A stretch of 64,000 bases of DNA from Flexithrix dorotheae DSM 6795 (lineage in GTDB: Bacteria > Bacteroidota > Bacteroidia > Cytophagales > Flammeovirgaceae). The translations under genes were made by a program, and so were the position numbers. Below the pieces are notes generated by a model. The model did no database searches. It was not told the DNA's origin and worked only from the letters and a program-made list of their open reading frames with translations. Shown piece after piece: positions 46,591-58,116 of this stretch (positions are counted from its first letter, which is position 1; every line of letters starts with the position of its first letter). Where the stretch lies: positions 248,001 through 312,000 of the forward strand of contig NZ_KB903443.1 of NCBI RefSeq assembly GCF_000379765.1, written 5' to 3'.

Positions 46591-47676
46591 TTGAAACAGC
46601 TAAAAAACGAAATCGGAAATTTGCTGGATGGAGCCACTGGAAGTGGTGCGGCAATTTCCCTGGAATCGCTTGAACTAAGCAAAATAGTTAAAGACCTTTC
46701 CCAACCTACCATTGAAAGGATTAATTCCTTTGAAGATATCATTAACATTGAAGTAGGAGATACTTCCCTTACCCGGGCCAGAAATGTAGAAAGGGAAACC
46801 GGCCTGCGTCAAATCTTCCTGAAATTTGAGGGTGGAAACCCCACCGGCACACAAAAAGACAGAATTGCTTTTGCGCAGTGCCTTGATGCTTTGCGAAGGG
46901 GCTATGATACAGTCACGCTGGCAACCTGCGGAAACTATGGGGCTTCTATGGCATTAGCGGCTTGGCTTGCTGGTTTAAAATGTGTGGTTTGTATTCCTGA
47001 AGCTTACCATACCGAGCGGATAAAAGATATGGAAAAGTTTGGAGTGACCATTTCCAGAACTCCCGGGGCCTATGAAGATGCCGTGCTGTTTTCCCAAAGA
47101 TTAGCGGAAAAAGAAGAGTTTTACGATGCCAACCCCGGTGGAATAAACACTGCACTTCAATTGCAGGCTTATGGTGAACTGGCTTTTGAAATTTATGATA
47201 TATTGCGTGATGCACCAAAGGTTGTAGCGGCTCCAGTTTCCAATGGGACACTTCTGGCAGGCATCTATCGTGGGTTTGTCAGTTTATATAAAAGAGGAAA
47301 AACTTCCAGAATTCCCAAAATGATAGGTGCATCCTCCACCAATAAAAACCCTATTATTCTTTCTTTCAAAAAAGGTTTGGACCACTGCATTGACCTTTCT
47401 CCTGAATCCATCAAGGAGACTAAAATTAACGAGCCTCTGATCAACTGGCATTCTTATGATGGGGAAGAAGCTTTGCATGCCATTAACCATTCAAAAGGCT
47501 GGGCAACCTGGGCCAGTGATAACAAACTGTCGCACTACAGCAAATTGCTGAAGGAAAAAGAAGGACTAAATGTGCTTCCGGCCTCTACGGCTGGTTTGGT
47601 GGGCTTGTTGGAAATGCATAAAACAATGCCTTTTGAAGGAGATCGGTTTGTGGCGATTCTGACCGGAAGGAAGTAA
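46591..47676 (+). CDS. Threonine-synthase-like PLP-dependent enzyme
   Basis: 361 residues from a TTG start at 46591. Fold-type II PLP enzyme: the PLP lysine is K89 in EGGNPTGTQKDRIAF, the phosphate-binding loop is TCGNYGASMALAAW, and a second glycine loop is AAPVSNGTLLAGIYRGF. The order resembles threonine synthase and its relatives. It lacks the N-terminal domain of full threonine synthase and sits in a non-threonine context. It probably does a beta/gamma elimination or replacement on an amino-acid substrate made or used by the two downstream genes, 53 bp away. The exact reaction is unknown. Confidence 0.82.
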   Translation: MKQLKNEIGNLLDGATGSGAAISLESLELSKIVKDLSQPTIERINSFEDIINIEVGDTSLTRARNVERETGLRQIFLKFEGGNPTGTQKDRIAFAQCLDALRRGYDTVTLATCGNYGASMALAAWLAGLKCVVCIPEAYHTERIKDMEKFGVTISRTPGAYEDAVLFSQRLAEKEEFYDANPGGINTALQLQAYGELAFEIYDILRDAPKVVAAPVSNGTLLAGIYRGFVSLYKRGKTSRIPKMIGASSTNKNPIILSFKKGLDHCIDLSPESIKETKINEPLINWHSYDGEEALHAINHSKGWATWASDNKLSHYSKLLKEKEGLNVLPASTAGLVGLLEMHKTMPFEGDRFVAILTGRK

Positions 47677-47729
47677 TCCTTTCAACAAAAAAAAAGTCTT
47701 TCATTCAACAAAAAATTTAAAAAAATAAA

Positions 47730-48806
47730 ATGGATAGAATAATTGATGGAAATGCCATTGTTTATTGCCAGGGTGCTTTCAATACACCTAATGGAAAAAC
47801 TGCTCATGGTCTGGTGAGATTTACGGAAAGATATAATGTAGTGGCTGTGGTAGATTCTAATTATGCGGGAAAAGATGCAGGAGAAGTGTTAGATGGCAAA
47901 AAAGCGGATATTCCCATATTTGGTCATTTAAAGAAGGCGGTAGATTTCGCCAGAAAAAAAGGCAATCCGGCAAAATATCTGGTCATTGGCATTGCTCCTG
48001 ATGGCGGAAAGTTATCAAAACCTGCCCGGGAAGATGTACTTCAGGCCTTAACTTTTGGGCTAAATGTAGATTGTGGCCTGCACGATTTTCTTACCGAAGA
48101 CAAAGAAATCAGGAAAACAGCAGAGAAATATAAATGTACTGTAAGAGATATCAGAAAGCCTCCAAAGCGATCTGACCTACATTTCTTTTCAGGAGAAATT
48201 GAAAAAGTGGACTGCCTGAAACTTGCTACGCTGGGCACAGATTCAGCTGTGGGAAAAAGAACTACAGCCTGGCTGGTAGTCCATGGCTTAAGAAAAGCAG
48301 GCTTTAAGGCAGAACTTATTGGTACTGGGCAAACGGCCTGGATGCAGGGCGCAAAATATTCCCTTGTACTGGATTCACTGATTAATGATTTTGTATCGGG
48401 AGAAATTGAGCATGCAGTAGTTGAAGCCTGGAAAAATGAAAAACCTGATGTGATCGTAATCGAAGGTCAGGGCAGTTTAATGAATCCTGCCTATCCGGGT
48501 GGGTTTGAAATTTTAGCAGCAGGCCGACCTGACTATGTCTTGTTACAACATGCCCCGGCCAGATTGGAATACGATGGTTTTCCCGGTTATCCCTTGCACC
48601 CACTACCTCACCAAATTCAGGCAATTGAAGTGATTTCAGGTAAAAAGGTGATGGCAGTAACCGTAAACCATGAAGAAATGAAAGCAGAAGAAGTGCCTGC
48701 AGCCTGTGAAAAAATCACACGGGAAACGGGATTACCAGCCACAGATGTCCTACTGGATGGCCCAGAAAAATTATTAGAAAGCATTATCCCATTAATCAAA
48801 AAATGA
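47730..48806 (+). CDS. DUF1611 (DgcN-like) P-loop protein
   Basis: 358 residues, the family's usual length. The N-terminal Rossmann-like part (about 1-130) has VVAVVDSNYAGKDAGEVLDGK and LVIGIAPDGGKLS. The C-terminal part carries a P-loop, LGTDSAVGKRTTA (169-180), and VIVIEGQGSLMNPAYPGG. One DUF1611 member, DgcN, N-acetylates D-glutamate in a marine catabolic pathway. Others sit beside enolase-superfamily epimerases. By analogy this protein may modify an acidic amino acid. Its stop overlaps the next start as ATGA, so translation is coupled to the PP-loop/creatininase fusion. Confidence 0.85.
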   Translation: MDRIIDGNAIVYCQGAFNTPNGKTAHGLVRFTERYNVVAVVDSNYAGKDAGEVLDGKKADIPIFGHLKKAVDFARKKGNPAKYLVIGIAPDGGKLSKPAREDVLQALTFGLNVDCGLHDFLTEDKEIRKTAEKYKCTVRDIRKPPKRSDLHFFSGEIEKVDCLKLATLGTDSAVGKRTTAWLVVHGLRKAGFKAELIGTGQTAWMQGAKYSLVLDSLINDFVSGEIEHAVVEAWKNEKPDVIVIEGQGSLMNPAYPGGFEILAAGRPDYVLLQHAPARLEYDGFPGYPLHPLPHQIQAIEVISGKKVMAVTVNHEEMKAEEVPAACEKITRETGLPATDVLLDGPEKLLESIIPLIKK

Positions 48807-51148
48807 CCGAATCTAAAAAAGTAGATAAAAATTCTTTAGTCGTATTTAAACACCTGAAAGTTGGCCCCCTTTTAATAGAAAAAAAGCGTGTGAAAGCACC
48901 TTATGAAGTGCTAAAAAAGGATGGAAGCATTGAAACCAACGAATTAATTTATGCTTACGAAGAGGATGTTTTTGATCCCAAAAAATCGGAAAGTGTAAAC
49001 CTGGCTTCTGTGATAGCTGCCCAGGTGGCAATTAACTATGGTTTATTTTGTGAAGAAATCATTTTCGATGGGATTTATGATGATTCTGACAAACGGTTCA
49101 TTTCCGATATGATGGAAAACACCAGTCGGGAGATTTTTGTGAATAAAATTTTAATGCCGAATGAATTCCTGAAGGATGATTTTAGGAATATACAACCGGA
49201 AAAAAAGAACAGGTATACTGCGGCTAATCTGCTTTTTTTAGACTCCGACTACAAACACCTGAATCTGGACTGGAGTTTTCGGGAAAAAGATGAAAATGGA
49301 TTCGCCATCCTGAGTAGTGGAGGAAAGGACAGCCTGCTTTCCTATGGTTTAATGAAAGAAATGGGTAAAAACGTCCATCCTGTTTTTGTGAATGAATCCG
49401 GCCGGCATTGGTTCACCGCTATTAATGCCTATCGGCACATGAAGGAAACTGAGTCCAATACCAGCAGGGTTTGGTGCAACAGTGACAGGATTTTCAACTG
49501 GATGCTACGCCAAATGCCTTTTATTAAGGAAGATTTTAATAAAATGAGGGCGGATATGTATCCTATCCGGCTGTGGACAGTTGCAGTATTTTTATTTGGG
49601 GTATTGCCCGTTTCCAAAAAAAGAGGCGTAAGAAATATTTTGATCGGGGATGAATACGATACCACTGTAAAATCAAATTATCAGGGTATTACTCATTACA
49701 ATTCATTGTACGATCAGAGTAAGTATTTTGACAATGCCCTTACCCGGTATTTCATGAAAAAGGGCTGGAATATGTATCAGTATTCCATTCTGAGAAGTTT
49801 ATCAGAATTATTAATTCTAAAAATTCTGGTAAAAAGGTATCCGGAGCTGCAAAAGCATCAGACTTCCTGCCATGCCACCCATGAAAAGGATGGAAAAATT
49901 TATCCCTGTGGAAATTGCGAAAAATGCCGAAGAATTGTGGGTATGCTCAAGTCTCTTGATGAGGATCCACAAAGGTGTGGATATACCCCGGAGCAAATTG
50001 AAAAATGCCTGAAAAGTCTGGAGCACAACAAGGTAAAACAAATTGGTCCTGATGCTGCCCAACTGTATCATTTGCTTTTAGAAAAAGGACTAATTGCCCA
50101 AAACGAACACACCAAAAAACTGGCTAAACAACATGAAGAAATTTTAAATCTGAGATTCGATAATGAAAGGTCATTAATTTCAGATTTACCTTCTGGTATC
50201 CGAGAAGAAATGTTTAAAATTTACCTGGAATATGCGGATGGATCGGTGGTTTTGCAAAACAGGAAATGGAACAAAATTGACCTTTTAAATAGTCCAATAA
50301 TTAAACAACCTTATCCATTTGAATTGAAATTGGAACCAAATACCAACAATGGTCAGGCCAAAAAAGACAATGGCCACCTATGGGAAAAACTCACCTGGGA
50401 AGAACTGGATGAAAAGCTTAAAGTATCTGATACAGCCATTTTACCCTGTGGTGCTATAGAACAGCACGGTCCACACTTGCCTGTGGATATCGATTACTAT
50501 GATGCAAATTACCTGGCCAGGAAAGTAGCAGAAGCCTGCAGTGAACCAAAACCTCTGGTAATTCCTCCAATCCCCTTTGGCGTCTCCTATCATCATGAAG
50601 ACTTTAAAGGTACGATTAGTGTGAGTAATGATGCGCTTTCAAAATTTGTATATGATATTGGGATGAGCCTTGCCCAAAACGGTATTAAAAAACTGATCAT
50701 TATCAATGGACATGGGGACAATGCCCCTACCCTGAATTATGCTGCACAAATGATCAACCGGGATGCCCATATCTTTGTATGTGTAGATACCGGGGAAACA
50801 AGTGATGAGGATTTGTATCATTTAATTGATACACCTAATGATATTCATGCCGGGGAAATAGAAACCAGTACCACATTGGCTTTGCGACCGGAAATGGTGA
50901 AAATGGACAAAGCCGTAAACGAAACCCTGAAATTTGGCAGCACATACCTTGATTTTACGTCCGAAAGAAGTGTTTCCTGGTATGTAAGAACCAAGAAAAT
51001 TTCCGAATCGGGCATTATGGGGGATCCTACCAAAGCCACTGCTGAAAAAGGCAAAAAGATGTGGGACATTATGATTGCCCATTTGGTGAAATTTGTGGAG
51101 GAAATCAAAAGCAGCAAACTGGAAGATCTTTATCAGAAAAGGTATTGA
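48803..51148 (+). CDS. PP-loop ATP-pyrophosphatase / creatininase-family amidohydrolase fusion
   Basis: 781 residues. Part 1 (about 1-165) is an unrecognised N-terminal domain. Part 2 (about 166-400) is a PP-loop ATPase with FAILSSGGKDSLLSYGLM (SGGKDS 172-177), IGDEYDTT, and a QueC-like cysteine set C356, C369, C372, C375 that probably binds zinc. Part 3 (about 525-781) is a creatininase-type metalloamidohydrolase with ILPCGAIEQHGPHLPVDID (E553, H555, D562), LIIINGHGDN (H636) and HAGEIETSTT (E685). PP-loop enzymes adenylate a carboxyl or amide; creatininase-fold enzymes open or form amide bonds in small molecules. Joining both in one chain suggests sequential steps on one metabolite. Confidence 0.85.
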   Translation: MTESKKVDKNSLVVFKHLKVGPLLIEKKRVKAPYEVLKKDGSIETNELIYAYEEDVFDPKKSESVNLASVIAAQVAINYGLFCEEIIFDGIYDDSDKRFISDMMENTSREIFVNKILMPNEFLKDDFRNIQPEKKNRYTAANLLFLDSDYKHLNLDWSFREKDENGFAILSSGGKDSLLSYGLMKEMGKNVHPVFVNESGRHWFTAINAYRHMKETESNTSRVWCNSDRIFNWMLRQMPFIKEDFNKMRADMYPIRLWTVAVFLFGVLPVSKKRGVRNILIGDEYDTTVKSNYQGITHYNSLYDQSKYFDNALTRYFMKKGWNMYQYSILRSLSELLILKILVKRYPELQKHQTSCHATHEKDGKIYPCGNCEKCRRIVGMLKSLDEDPQRCGYTPEQIEKCLKSLEHNKVKQIGPDAAQLYHLLLEKGLIAQNEHTKKLAKQHEEILNLRFDNERSLISDLPSGIREEMFKIYLEYADGSVVLQNRKWNKIDLLNSPIIKQPYPFELKLEPNTNNGQAKKDNGHLWEKLTWEELDEKLKVSDTAILPCGAIEQHGPHLPVDIDYYDANYLARKVAEACSEPKPLVIPPIPFGVSYHHEDFKGTISVSNDALSKFVYDIGMSLAQNGIKKLIIINGHGDNAPTLNYAAQMINRDAHIFVCVDTGETSDEDLYHLIDTPNDIHAGEIETSTTLALRPEMVKMDKAVNETLKFGSTYLDFTSERSVSWYVRTKKISESGIMGDPTKATAEKGKKMWDIMIAHLVKFVEEIKSSKLEDLYQKRY

Positions 51149-57336: not shown

Positions 57337-58116
57337 ATGATATTTAAAGATCAGTTAAACAGAGAGGTGATGCTAGAGGGTTTTCCCAAAAGAATCATCT
57401 CTCTTGTTCCTTCTACCACCGAGACTTTGTTCGATTTAGGACTGGAAAATGAAGTCATAGGCATTACAAAATTTTGCAAGTACCCCAAAGATAAATTGAA
57501 AGGTTGTTTGAAAGTTGGGGGGACGAAAACCTTTCATTTTGACAGGGTAGAAAAACTTCAACCAGATTTGATCATTGCCAATAAAGAAGAAAACAGGAAG
57601 GAAGACATTGAAGCGCTTGAAAAGCAATTCCCCGTCTGGGTAAGTGATATTTGTAATATTGTCGATAGCCAGGAAATGATTCGCAGCATTGGGGGAATCA
57701 CGAACAGACAGGAAAGGGCAACTAAAATCATTACGGATATTGACAGTGGTTTTGAGCGTATTACCCAAAAACTACAGCCTAAAAAAGTACTTTATTTTAT
57801 CTGGCGAAATCCGTATATGGTAGCAGGTAAAGGGACTTTTATTGATTCCATTTTAACCAAAATTGGATTTGAAAACATAGCTCCTGAAAGCCGATATCCA
57901 AAACTGGATCAGGAAACAATTGAACAACTCAATAAAAAGGTGGATTTGATTTTACTTTCTTCAGAGCCATTTCCTTTTAAGGAAAAGTATCTTGCTGAAT
58001 TTCAGGAAATATTCCCAGGCAAGGAAATCAGGTTAGTAGATGGGGAAATGTTTTGCTGGCCAGGCAGCAGATTGAAATATGCGTCTAAATATCTTTTGGA
58101 GACTTTTTTCACTTAG
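57337..58116 (+). CDS. BtuF-like helical-backbone metal/corrinoid-binding protein without signal peptide
   Basis: 259 residues. The sequence PKRIISLVPSTTETLFDLGLENEVIGITKFCKYP with KVGGTKTFHFDRVEKLQPDLIIANKEEN is the start of a periplasmic-binding-protein fold of the BtuF/FhuD type. FWCWPGSRLKYASKY-like ends are usual. There is no signal peptide or lipobox, so unlike BtuF it should be cytoplasmic. It starts 9 bp after the lipoprotein esterase gene and no transporter genes are near. A role in cobalamin or metal-chelate handling inside the cell is only a guess. Confidence 0.82.
   Translation: MIFKDQLNREVMLEGFPKRIISLVPSTTETLFDLGLENEVIGITKFCKYPKDKLKGCLKVGGTKTFHFDRVEKLQPDLIIANKEENRKEDIEALEKQFPVWVSDICNIVDSQEMIRSIGGITNRQERATKIITDIDSGFERITQKLQPKKVLYFIWRNPYMVAGKGTFIDSILTKIGFENIAPESRYPKLDQETIEQLNKKVDLILLSSEPFPFKEKYLAEFQEIFPGKEIRLVDGEMFCWPGSRLKYASKYLLETFFT

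Follow-up and report, generated by a model that had tools for sequence, protein, structure and literature searches.

A Flexithrix dorotheae operon for a PLP enzyme, a DUF1611 protein and a fused PP-loop/creatininase protein as a possible truncated copy of a recurring five-gene module

Several described enzyme systems frame the operon considered here. The reactions of DgcN and DgcA, as given in excerpts of PMC11747546, offer a precedent for a DUF1611 protein paired with a racemase. Among QueC-type PP-loop proteins, excerpts of PMC13279940 describe QatC as carrying N- and C-terminal extensions and a four-cysteine zinc site, and Cap9 as joining a carboxylate to a protein N-terminus. MurL is a peptide epimerase that requires ATP and releases AMP (excerpts of PMC5808125), and the amidohydrolase of GMP synthase is joined to the synthetase in some lineages and a protein of its own in others (PMC13329287). 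In this report, we examine a three-gene operon of Flexithrix dorotheae DSM 6795 that encodes a fold type II enzyme dependent on pyridoxal 5'-phosphate (PLP), a DUF1611 protein and a fusion of a PP-loop with a creatininase domain, located in a stretch of 64,000 nucleotides (assembly GCF_000379765.1, contig NZ_KB903443.1, positions 248,001 to 312,000 of the forward strand), hereafter the window. Our best explanation, held tentatively and at somewhat less than an even chance, is that the trio represents a five-enzyme module truncated at this locus, the window having no adjacent epimerase, in which an amino acid would be N-acylated, epimerised and amide-coupled with the creatininase serving as the ligase's amidohydrolase partner.

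An initial annotation, made from the letters alone, had described a close-packed trio and proposed a joint pathway for it. The three open reading frames lie exactly where it placed them, all on the + strand and in one direction, and the packing is borne out, with 53 bp between the first and second genes and an ATGA overlap between the second and third. Positions below count from the first letter of the window.

46591..47676, + strand: fold type II PLP-dependent enzyme, 361 amino acids, Pfam PALP, with catalytic-type Lys89, SNGT at residues 217-220 and Gln190
47730..48806, + strand: DUF1611_N plus DUF1611 protein (Pfam), 358 amino acids, a distant relative of DgcN and of the solved chains 2g0t, 2obn and 7xrj
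48803..51148, + strand: fusion of a PP-loop (QueC/QatC-like) domain and a creatininase domain, 781 amino acids
48803..50317, + strand: QueC/QatC-like domain, about residues 1-505, with structural matches to QatC, QueC and Cap9
49313..49333, + strand: PP-loop motif SSGGKDS, residues 171-177
49868..49927, + strand: four-cysteine site C356...C369xxC372xxC375, like the zinc site of QueC/QatC
50384..51097, + strand: creatininase domain, residues 528-765, with E553, H555, D564 and H637

The start codon of the PLP gene is a TTG immediately 3' of an in-frame TAA, so the true start of its protein is uncertain by some residues.

The trio belongs to a recurring arrangement, in the order PLP enzyme, DUF1611 protein, PP-loop protein, creatininase and enolase-superfamily epimerase, seen across 82 loci. 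These comprise the window, the relative G049 and 80 database loci, the latter kept from 147 relatives found by scanning a genome collection with two short peptide patterns, one of which, PCG[KN]CEKC, holds three of the four cysteines; the other 67 relatives were not viewed. Loci L092 and L119 come from the same genome, and PP-loop loci L051-L053 were read yet stand outside the 82. Counting as evaluable those loci with at least 2.5 kb upstream or at least 2.3 kb downstream, the PLP gene lies upstream within the stretch in 67 of 75, DUF1611 is present in 70 of 75 (about 8 kb away in four of these), and the epimerase follows downstream in 57 of 66. The PP-loop and creatininase domains are fused in 30/82 loci, a separate creatininase lies downstream in 49 of the 50 evaluable unfused ones, and 49 of the 62 loci that are flanked sufficiently at both ends contain the full set of five. 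The module genes found share one strand in 82/82 loci, with median spacings along the module of 5, -4, -12.5 and 1 bp when each start is taken as the first start codon of its frame. No further gene family occurs in more than 10 of the 82 loci when neighbours are clustered by homology.

The distribution is broad and patchy. Judged by record titles, many of them of metagenome-assembled genomes, the lineages include Bacteroidota, Melioribacteraceae and other Ignavibacteriae (Ignavibacteriota), Calditrichota (Calditrichaeota), Aminicenantes, Latescibacterota, Zixiibacteriota, Planctomycetota, Acidobacteria, deltaproteobacteria and SAR324. Within the phylum of F. dorotheae, a profile of the PP-loop half matched 11 of 395 genomes, and a search of the third protein against 291 genomes of the same order covered the PP-loop half, among the matches listed, only in F. 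dorotheae itself and in G049; the latter has a run of four neighbouring genes for PLP, DUF1611, PP-loop and creatininase, the last two unfused. In a mirror-tree comparison made with no species-tree control, the five proteins show pairwise-distance correlations of 0.71-0.89, as would be expected if they travelled together. Recurrence of the operon across several phyla supports the joint pathway; the genes might have proved to be rarely together in other genomes, which would have spoken against such a pathway, and they are often together.

Part of this module appears to stand alone. Of 296 Bacteroidota genomes, 16 have a PLP protein that scores over the cut-off of family NF004996, and seven of these 16 are among the PP-loop profile matches. 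In the other nine the PLP gene adjoins DUF1611 and the epimerase in every case (divergently in two); their 18-19 kb of sequence read holds neither a PP-loop nor a module creatininase gene, and these genomes are not among the 11 PP-loop profile matches. Because nine genomes hold this set by itself, PLP-DUF1611-epimerase is an apparent stand-alone core, and the PP-loop and creatininase genes look like an add-on to it. Eight PP-loop loci have no PLP gene in their stretch; five of these were checked (L081, L122 and L127 falling outside the check), and all five genomes contain one. It lies just past the stretch, beside DUF1611, in G694, G695 and G696, and remote from the PP-loop gene in G672 and G673; in G674 it is already adjacent. 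Lewinella-type genomes (L056, L067) carry the PP-loop and creatininase genes as a two-gene unit, with the PLP gene elsewhere in the genome.

The PLP protein scores 169 bits with Pfam PALP and, at 419.6 bits against a cut-off of 266, falls within NF004996 (PRK06381), a family labelled 'threonine synthase'. That label is what would speak for ordinary threonine biosynthesis beside two unrelated neighbours, and we regard this explanation as the least probable of all those considered. With the ThrC model TIGR00260 the protein reaches 94 bits, below the cut-off of 167.1, and a genuine ThrC is encoded elsewhere in the genome, on contig C47, at 309.5 bits. In alignment, the Arg of NPxRxEGQ, common to the four solved threonine synthases shown (from a PDB sequence search at 1e-15), is replaced by Gln190, and the GNAGN loop for the PLP phosphate by SNGTL; Gln190, Lys89 and S217-G219 are each kept in 68/68 module PLP enzymes. 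We take the Arg of that segment to contact the substrate phosphate. Its replacement by Gln, together with the ThrC score below cut-off, argues for a fold type II enzyme that probably acts on a substrate other than that of threonine synthase. The linkage, which recurs in several phyla, likewise counts against a threonine pathway with chance neighbours. An ordinary threonine synthase, the outcome that would have undone the initial annotation, can thus be set aside on the separate ThrC, the 94-bit score and the Gln in 68/68. The name 'threonine synthase' looks wrong for the clade, since the 16 Bacteroidota members of NF004996 over the cut-off are encoded either within the module or within its core.

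The DUF1611 protein scores 215.7 bits with Pfam DUF1611 (PF07755; gathering cut-off 25) and 83.9 with DUF1611_N. It shares GTDxxxGK, TGQT and EGQG with its solved relatives 2g0t, 2obn and 7xrj, and the motif positions tested are invariant in 69/69 module proteins except F221, which is kept in 68. With the DgcN model NF041892 it reaches 154.7 bits, far under the equivalog cut-off of 480, and DgcN membership was accordingly rejected. DUF1611 beside an enolase-superfamily epimerase has a functional precedent in DgcN/DgcA, from which this protein stands apart as a family member.

The module epimerases have 1jpm, 3jva and 3rit as their best solved relatives and form their own clade with 100/99 support. 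They carry the residues of the dipeptide epimerase group: K162, K268, D190, E216 and D241 in 64/64, and D318 and D320 (DxD) in 63/64, with one sequence gapped. K162 and K268 are the catalytic lysines of YkfB (PMC5808125). Three module epimerases were scored against named models and reached 142.5-152.4 bits with DgcA NF042940 (cut-off 400), and 241-255 with NF041118 (cut-off 500) and 91-104 with NF011708 (cut-off 343) for L-Ala-D/L-Glu epimerase; below these cut-offs, they were assigned to neither DgcA nor the Ala-Glu epimerases. The position of 1jpm Arg24 is occupied by Glu in 62/64, by Asp in one and by Gln in one, and by Arg in both 1jpm and 3rit. We assume that Arg24 of 1jpm binds the Glu side chain and that 3rit epimerises cationic dipeptides. 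With Glu in place of that Arg, there is no support for an acidic side chain on the substrate, and a cationic one is possible judging by this residue, although Glu24 alone does not show it because 3rit itself has Arg there. These comparisons divide the fate of the earlier interpretation. Its joint pathway is supported, as are its reading of the PLP protein as something other than an ordinary threonine synthase and its link to D-amino-acid or N-acyl chemistry, which gains from DUF1611 adjoining an epimerase; its acidic amino acid is not supported, given Glu in 62/64 module epimerases and 155 bits with DgcN against 480. The initial annotation had also overlooked that an epimerase belongs to the set, that the PP-loop domain has a QueC/QatC-type fold, and that the PP-loop and creatininase genes look like an add-on to the core.

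An adjacent epimerase is absent from the window, G049 and L055. At the usual epimerase position of G049 lies a gene for a SET-domain protein (L043:11830-12432). The best epimerase of the F. dorotheae genome, the unlinked L142 on contig C47, scores 315 bits with the module profile, compared with 536-590 for 15 module-type ones; it has Lys24 and about 37-40% identity to module epimerases, and it groups apart from them, in a clade with 100/99 support, together with unlinked epimerases from genomes that likewise have no module epimerase. Among all ten module genomes that were identified as having no adjacent epimerase, eight hold such a second-clade epimerase (269-319 bits), one has an unlinked module-type epimerase (544 bits) and one has none at E <= 1e-60. 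None of 15 module genomes with an epimerase, chosen by us, holds another at 260 bits or more (one has a 240-bit one), and the contrast of 8/10 with 0/15 gives a Fisher p of 4e-5, to be read with the facts that the cut-off was set after the scores were seen, that module epimerases supplied the profile and that taxonomy confounds the comparison.

This second pair may either substitute for the missing epimerase or form a parallel pathway. The second-clade epimerase adjoins its own DUF1611 paralogue in 6/8 genomes, which is why it may be a parallel pair; in F. dorotheae a DUF1611 paralogue is encoded on contig C58. L082, a module with no DUF1611 gene in a genome whose only DUF1611 found is of the paralogous kind, favours interchangeability of the two pairs. 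Elsewhere in the F. dorotheae genome, on contig C25 (L143), a DgcA-like epimerase (227 bits) lies beside a D-aminoacylase-like amidohydrolase and N-acetylmuramoyl-L-alanine-amidase-like and D-threonine-aldolase-like proteins, these neighbours being named by look; the cluster is perhaps concerned with recycling of peptidoglycan peptides or D-amino acids.

The N-terminal half of the third protein has no Pfam match at E <= 0.01 and thus falls outside the QueC family PF06508, and a PDB sequence search with its profile gave E values of 0.1 or worse. It holds SGGKDS at residues 172-177 in a predicted PP-loop fold, and the motif is intact among relatives, with S171-K175 and S177 in 80/80 and D176 in 79/80. 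AlphaFold models the fusion with a mean predicted local distance difference test (pLDDT) of 82.8 and a predicted template modelling score (pTM) of 0.67, and the PP-loop half alone with 92.3 and 0.91. The top structural match of this half is QatC 9y01 (Z 14.3, root-mean-square deviation (rmsd) 4.5, 319 aligned, range 14-435), followed by QueC 2pg3 (Z 13.3, rmsd 4.3, 209 aligned) and 3bl5 (Z 13.2, rmsd 3.0, 192 aligned) and by Cap9 9nto (Z 12.5, rmsd 2.8, 177 aligned); identity to these matches is 10-18%, and other PP-loop enzymes score Z 10.6 or less. The four cysteines are present in 12/12 sequences found before the pattern scan and in 80/80 later relatives, partly by construction as the scan pattern holds three of them. 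On the predicted model, the PP-loop half has a QueC-type fold, with its PP-loop, four-cysteine site and QueC-like core, and part of the QatC N-terminal extension seems shared because the QatC alignment begins at residue 14.

Alignment of about 100 more residues to QatC, the top match, than to QueC would suit a role in defence or protein modification related to Qat or type IV CBASS (cyclic-oligonucleotide-based antiphage signalling system), in which the QueC-like domain would modify a protein N-terminus. We consider this very improbable. At E <= 0.1 no PADLOC model matched any of the three proteins of the window, the unfused PP-loop protein of L043 likewise drew none, and no extra neighbour family accompanies more than 10 of the 82 loci, the neighbours not having been scanned as a whole with defence models. 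Qat membership by PADLOC was rejected for the window proteins on the same search. Four further neighbour proteins were also put to PADLOC, of which one matched a HEAT-repeat model.

A MurL-type role, in which the PP-loop protein would be an ATP-driven epimerase adenylating a terminal peptide residue on a cell-wall or peptide D-residue route, is somewhat better placed and still distinctly improbable. The MurL model NF041275 matches 38/42 PP-loop domains at E <= 0.1 (best 4.2e-7), weakly but consistently; MurL's need for ATP and release of AMP, as described in the excerpts cited above, would fit, and 3/10 module genomes searched hold no glutamate racemase over the cut-off. Against this, the window protein scores 18.7 bits where the cut-off is 700, on which MurL membership was rejected, and a glutamate racemase is over the cut-off in the other 7/10, including F. 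dorotheae, whose MurI at 229 bits makes replacement of glutamate racemase unlikely there. No structure of MurL came up for comparison with the PP-loop domain. A search of the F. dorotheae genome for MurL itself gave no match, nor did it in the controls, and is hence uninformative.

The C-terminal domain is a Creatininase domain (PF02633) at 239.7 bits over residues 528-765, and its fold matches 1j2t (Z 24.9, rmsd 2.3, 230 aligned) and 3lub (Z 24.9, rmsd 3.0, 235 aligned). E553, H555, D564 and H637, which we take to be metal-ligand-type residues, are kept in 78/78 relatives. With the creatininase model TIGR04448 it reaches 109.8 bits (cut-off 235) and with the MftE model TIGR03964 144.7 (cut-off 172); lying below both, it was assigned neither to creatininase proper nor to MftE.

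Taken with the linkage, these enzyme families suggest the following scheme, the steps of which we infer. The PLP enzyme would make, or consume, an L-amino acid through an elimination or replacement at the beta or gamma position; the DgcN-like DUF1611 protein would attach an acyl or aminoacyl group to an amino acid; the epimerase would flip the alpha-carbon of the N-acylated residue; and the QueC-like domain would adenylate a carboxylate and couple it with an amine or with ammonia. For the window, epimerisation would be supplied from elsewhere, with the unlinked C47 epimerase as a candidate, or be skipped. The creatininase domain, fused or adjacent, would be the ligase's partner amidohydrolase, either freeing the amine or ammonia for it, in the manner of the glutaminase domains of other PP-loop synthetases, or trimming an amide. 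The end product would be a small amide with a D-residue, or a metabolite resembling a dipeptide. A bolder form of this scheme, which we think unlikely, makes the fusion a new class of amidohydrolase-coupled ATP-dependent synthetase, where a metal-dependent creatininase in place of a glutaminase would act on a cyclic or peptidyl amide and pass the freed amine or ammonia to the QueC-like carboxyl-adenylate, in an undescribed multi-phylum pathway making a D-residue small molecule.

The same enzymes can be read in the opposite direction, as a catabolic route like that of DgcN and DgcA: the DUF1611 protein would N-acetylate a D-amino acid, the epimerase racemise it, the creatininase deacylate it and the PLP lyase degrade the resulting L-amino acid. 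We judge this rather unlikely, though less so than the bolder form above or a MurL-type role. The DgcN/DgcA-type reactions in the excerpted source are its precedent, similarity to the DgcN and DgcA models is weak but clear, many fold type II PLP matches are ammonia-lyases, and creatininase homologues are amidohydrolases. It leaves the ATP-using ligase unexplained, however; no uptake-transporter family lies beside most copies when neighbours are clustered by homology, and the scores of both key enzymes are far short of the DgcN and DgcA cut-offs. We favour biosynthesis over catabolism, as a lean and not a proof, on the presence of a ligase that uses ATP and on the lack of any transporter or regulator family beside most copies.

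Several points weigh against the biosynthetic module that we prefer. The creatininase as amine donor would follow by analogy with amidohydrolase-coupled PP-loop synthetases, and any substrate of the five proteins, like the direction, is putative. Membership of the ligase and creatininase in one pathway with the others rests on linkage, since the three-gene core occurs without them, and epimerisation is assumed for the window, G049 and L055. The DUF1611 protein (155 against 480 bits) and the epimerase (143-152 against 400) lie far under the DgcN and DgcA cut-offs for the proposed chemistry as well. As for direction, a family resembling extracytoplasmic function (ECF) sigma factors, named by look, is present in 10/82 stretches and a transporter-like protein of major facilitator superfamily (MFS) type with HEAT repeats in 8/82, so that those copies may have a regulator or transporter, and unrelated transporters at different loci would escape notice because neighbours were clustered by homology.

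The neighbourhoods contain further genes. Ten of the 82 stretches (L060, L061, L062, L069, L071, L076, L079, L081, L094 and L095; for example L071:791-8758) encode a secreted-looking protein of class-A beta-lactamase fold, with SLPK, S[DN]N and KSG in 10/10. Eight stretches hold a second beta-lactamase-fold protein, eight an MFS/ATP-ADP-transporter-like protein with HEAT repeats, the HEAT part of which matches the PADLOC HEAT model, and eight a PPDK_N (ATP-grasp) protein with a signal-like start in the five complete copies; an extracytoplasmic ATP-using enzyme beside an ATP-transporter-like protein would be odd. The ECF-sigma-factor-like protein lies somewhere in the stretch in L054, L058, L075, L086, L088, L092, L094, L096, L097 and L124. 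A GNAT-nitrilase fusion (about 509 amino acids, carbon-nitrogen hydrolase) occurs in seven loci (L069, L071, L075, L076, L078, L108 and L113), from Flavobacteriia and Melioribacteraceae by record title. In the window itself, a Peripla_BP_2 gene at 57337-58116 with no signal-like start lies 3' of a gene for a 584-amino-acid esterase-like protein, start and esterase both being judged by look.

The enzyme families are known; among the papers listed, at most 20 per search, in searches of open-licence PMC literature, there was no sign of their combination, of the fusion or of the core module. A term search of the main text of the PP-loop review PMC13329287 likewise gave no mention of creatininase, DUF1611 or MurL. 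What currently goes under the names 'threonine synthase', 'DUF' and 'creatininase' is a conserved multi-phylum operon. If the proposed chemistry is right, DgcN/DgcA-type reactions would extend beyond D-glutamate, the QueC fold would serve metabolism in a role other than 7-deazaguanine synthesis or defence, and the fusion becomes a testable case for a new amine-donor domain.

Set against the known systems, the module resembles DgcN/DgcA (D-glutamate N-acetyltransferase, Enzyme Commission (EC) 2.3.1.312, and N-acetyl-D-glutamate racemase, EC 5.1.1.25) in pairing a DUF1611-type protein with an enolase-superfamily racemase or epimerase; it differs in scoring under both cut-offs, in the Glu at the 1jpm Arg24 position and in its extra PLP enzyme, ligase and creatininase. 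With the dipeptide epimerases of B. subtilis (1jpm) and M. capsulatus (3rit) it shares catalytic lysines, metal ligands and DxD, whereas the module epimerase is a clade of its own with Glu24 where both of these have Arg. The PP-loop domain has the SGGxDS motif, four-cysteine site and fold of the QueC family (QueC, Cap9, QatC), but at 10-18% identity, with no Pfam QueC or PADLOC match and fused or adjacent to a creatininase. That creatininase keeps the fold and E/H/D/H residues of the MftE/creatininase family, yet it scores below both family cut-offs and can be fused to a PP-loop domain. Finally, as in GMP synthase and other amidohydrolase-coupled PP-loop synthetases (PMC13329287), an amidohydrolase stands fused to or separate beside a PP-loop protein, here a predicted synthetase, the difference being that the amidohydrolase of the module is a metal-type creatininase and not a glutamine amidotransferase.

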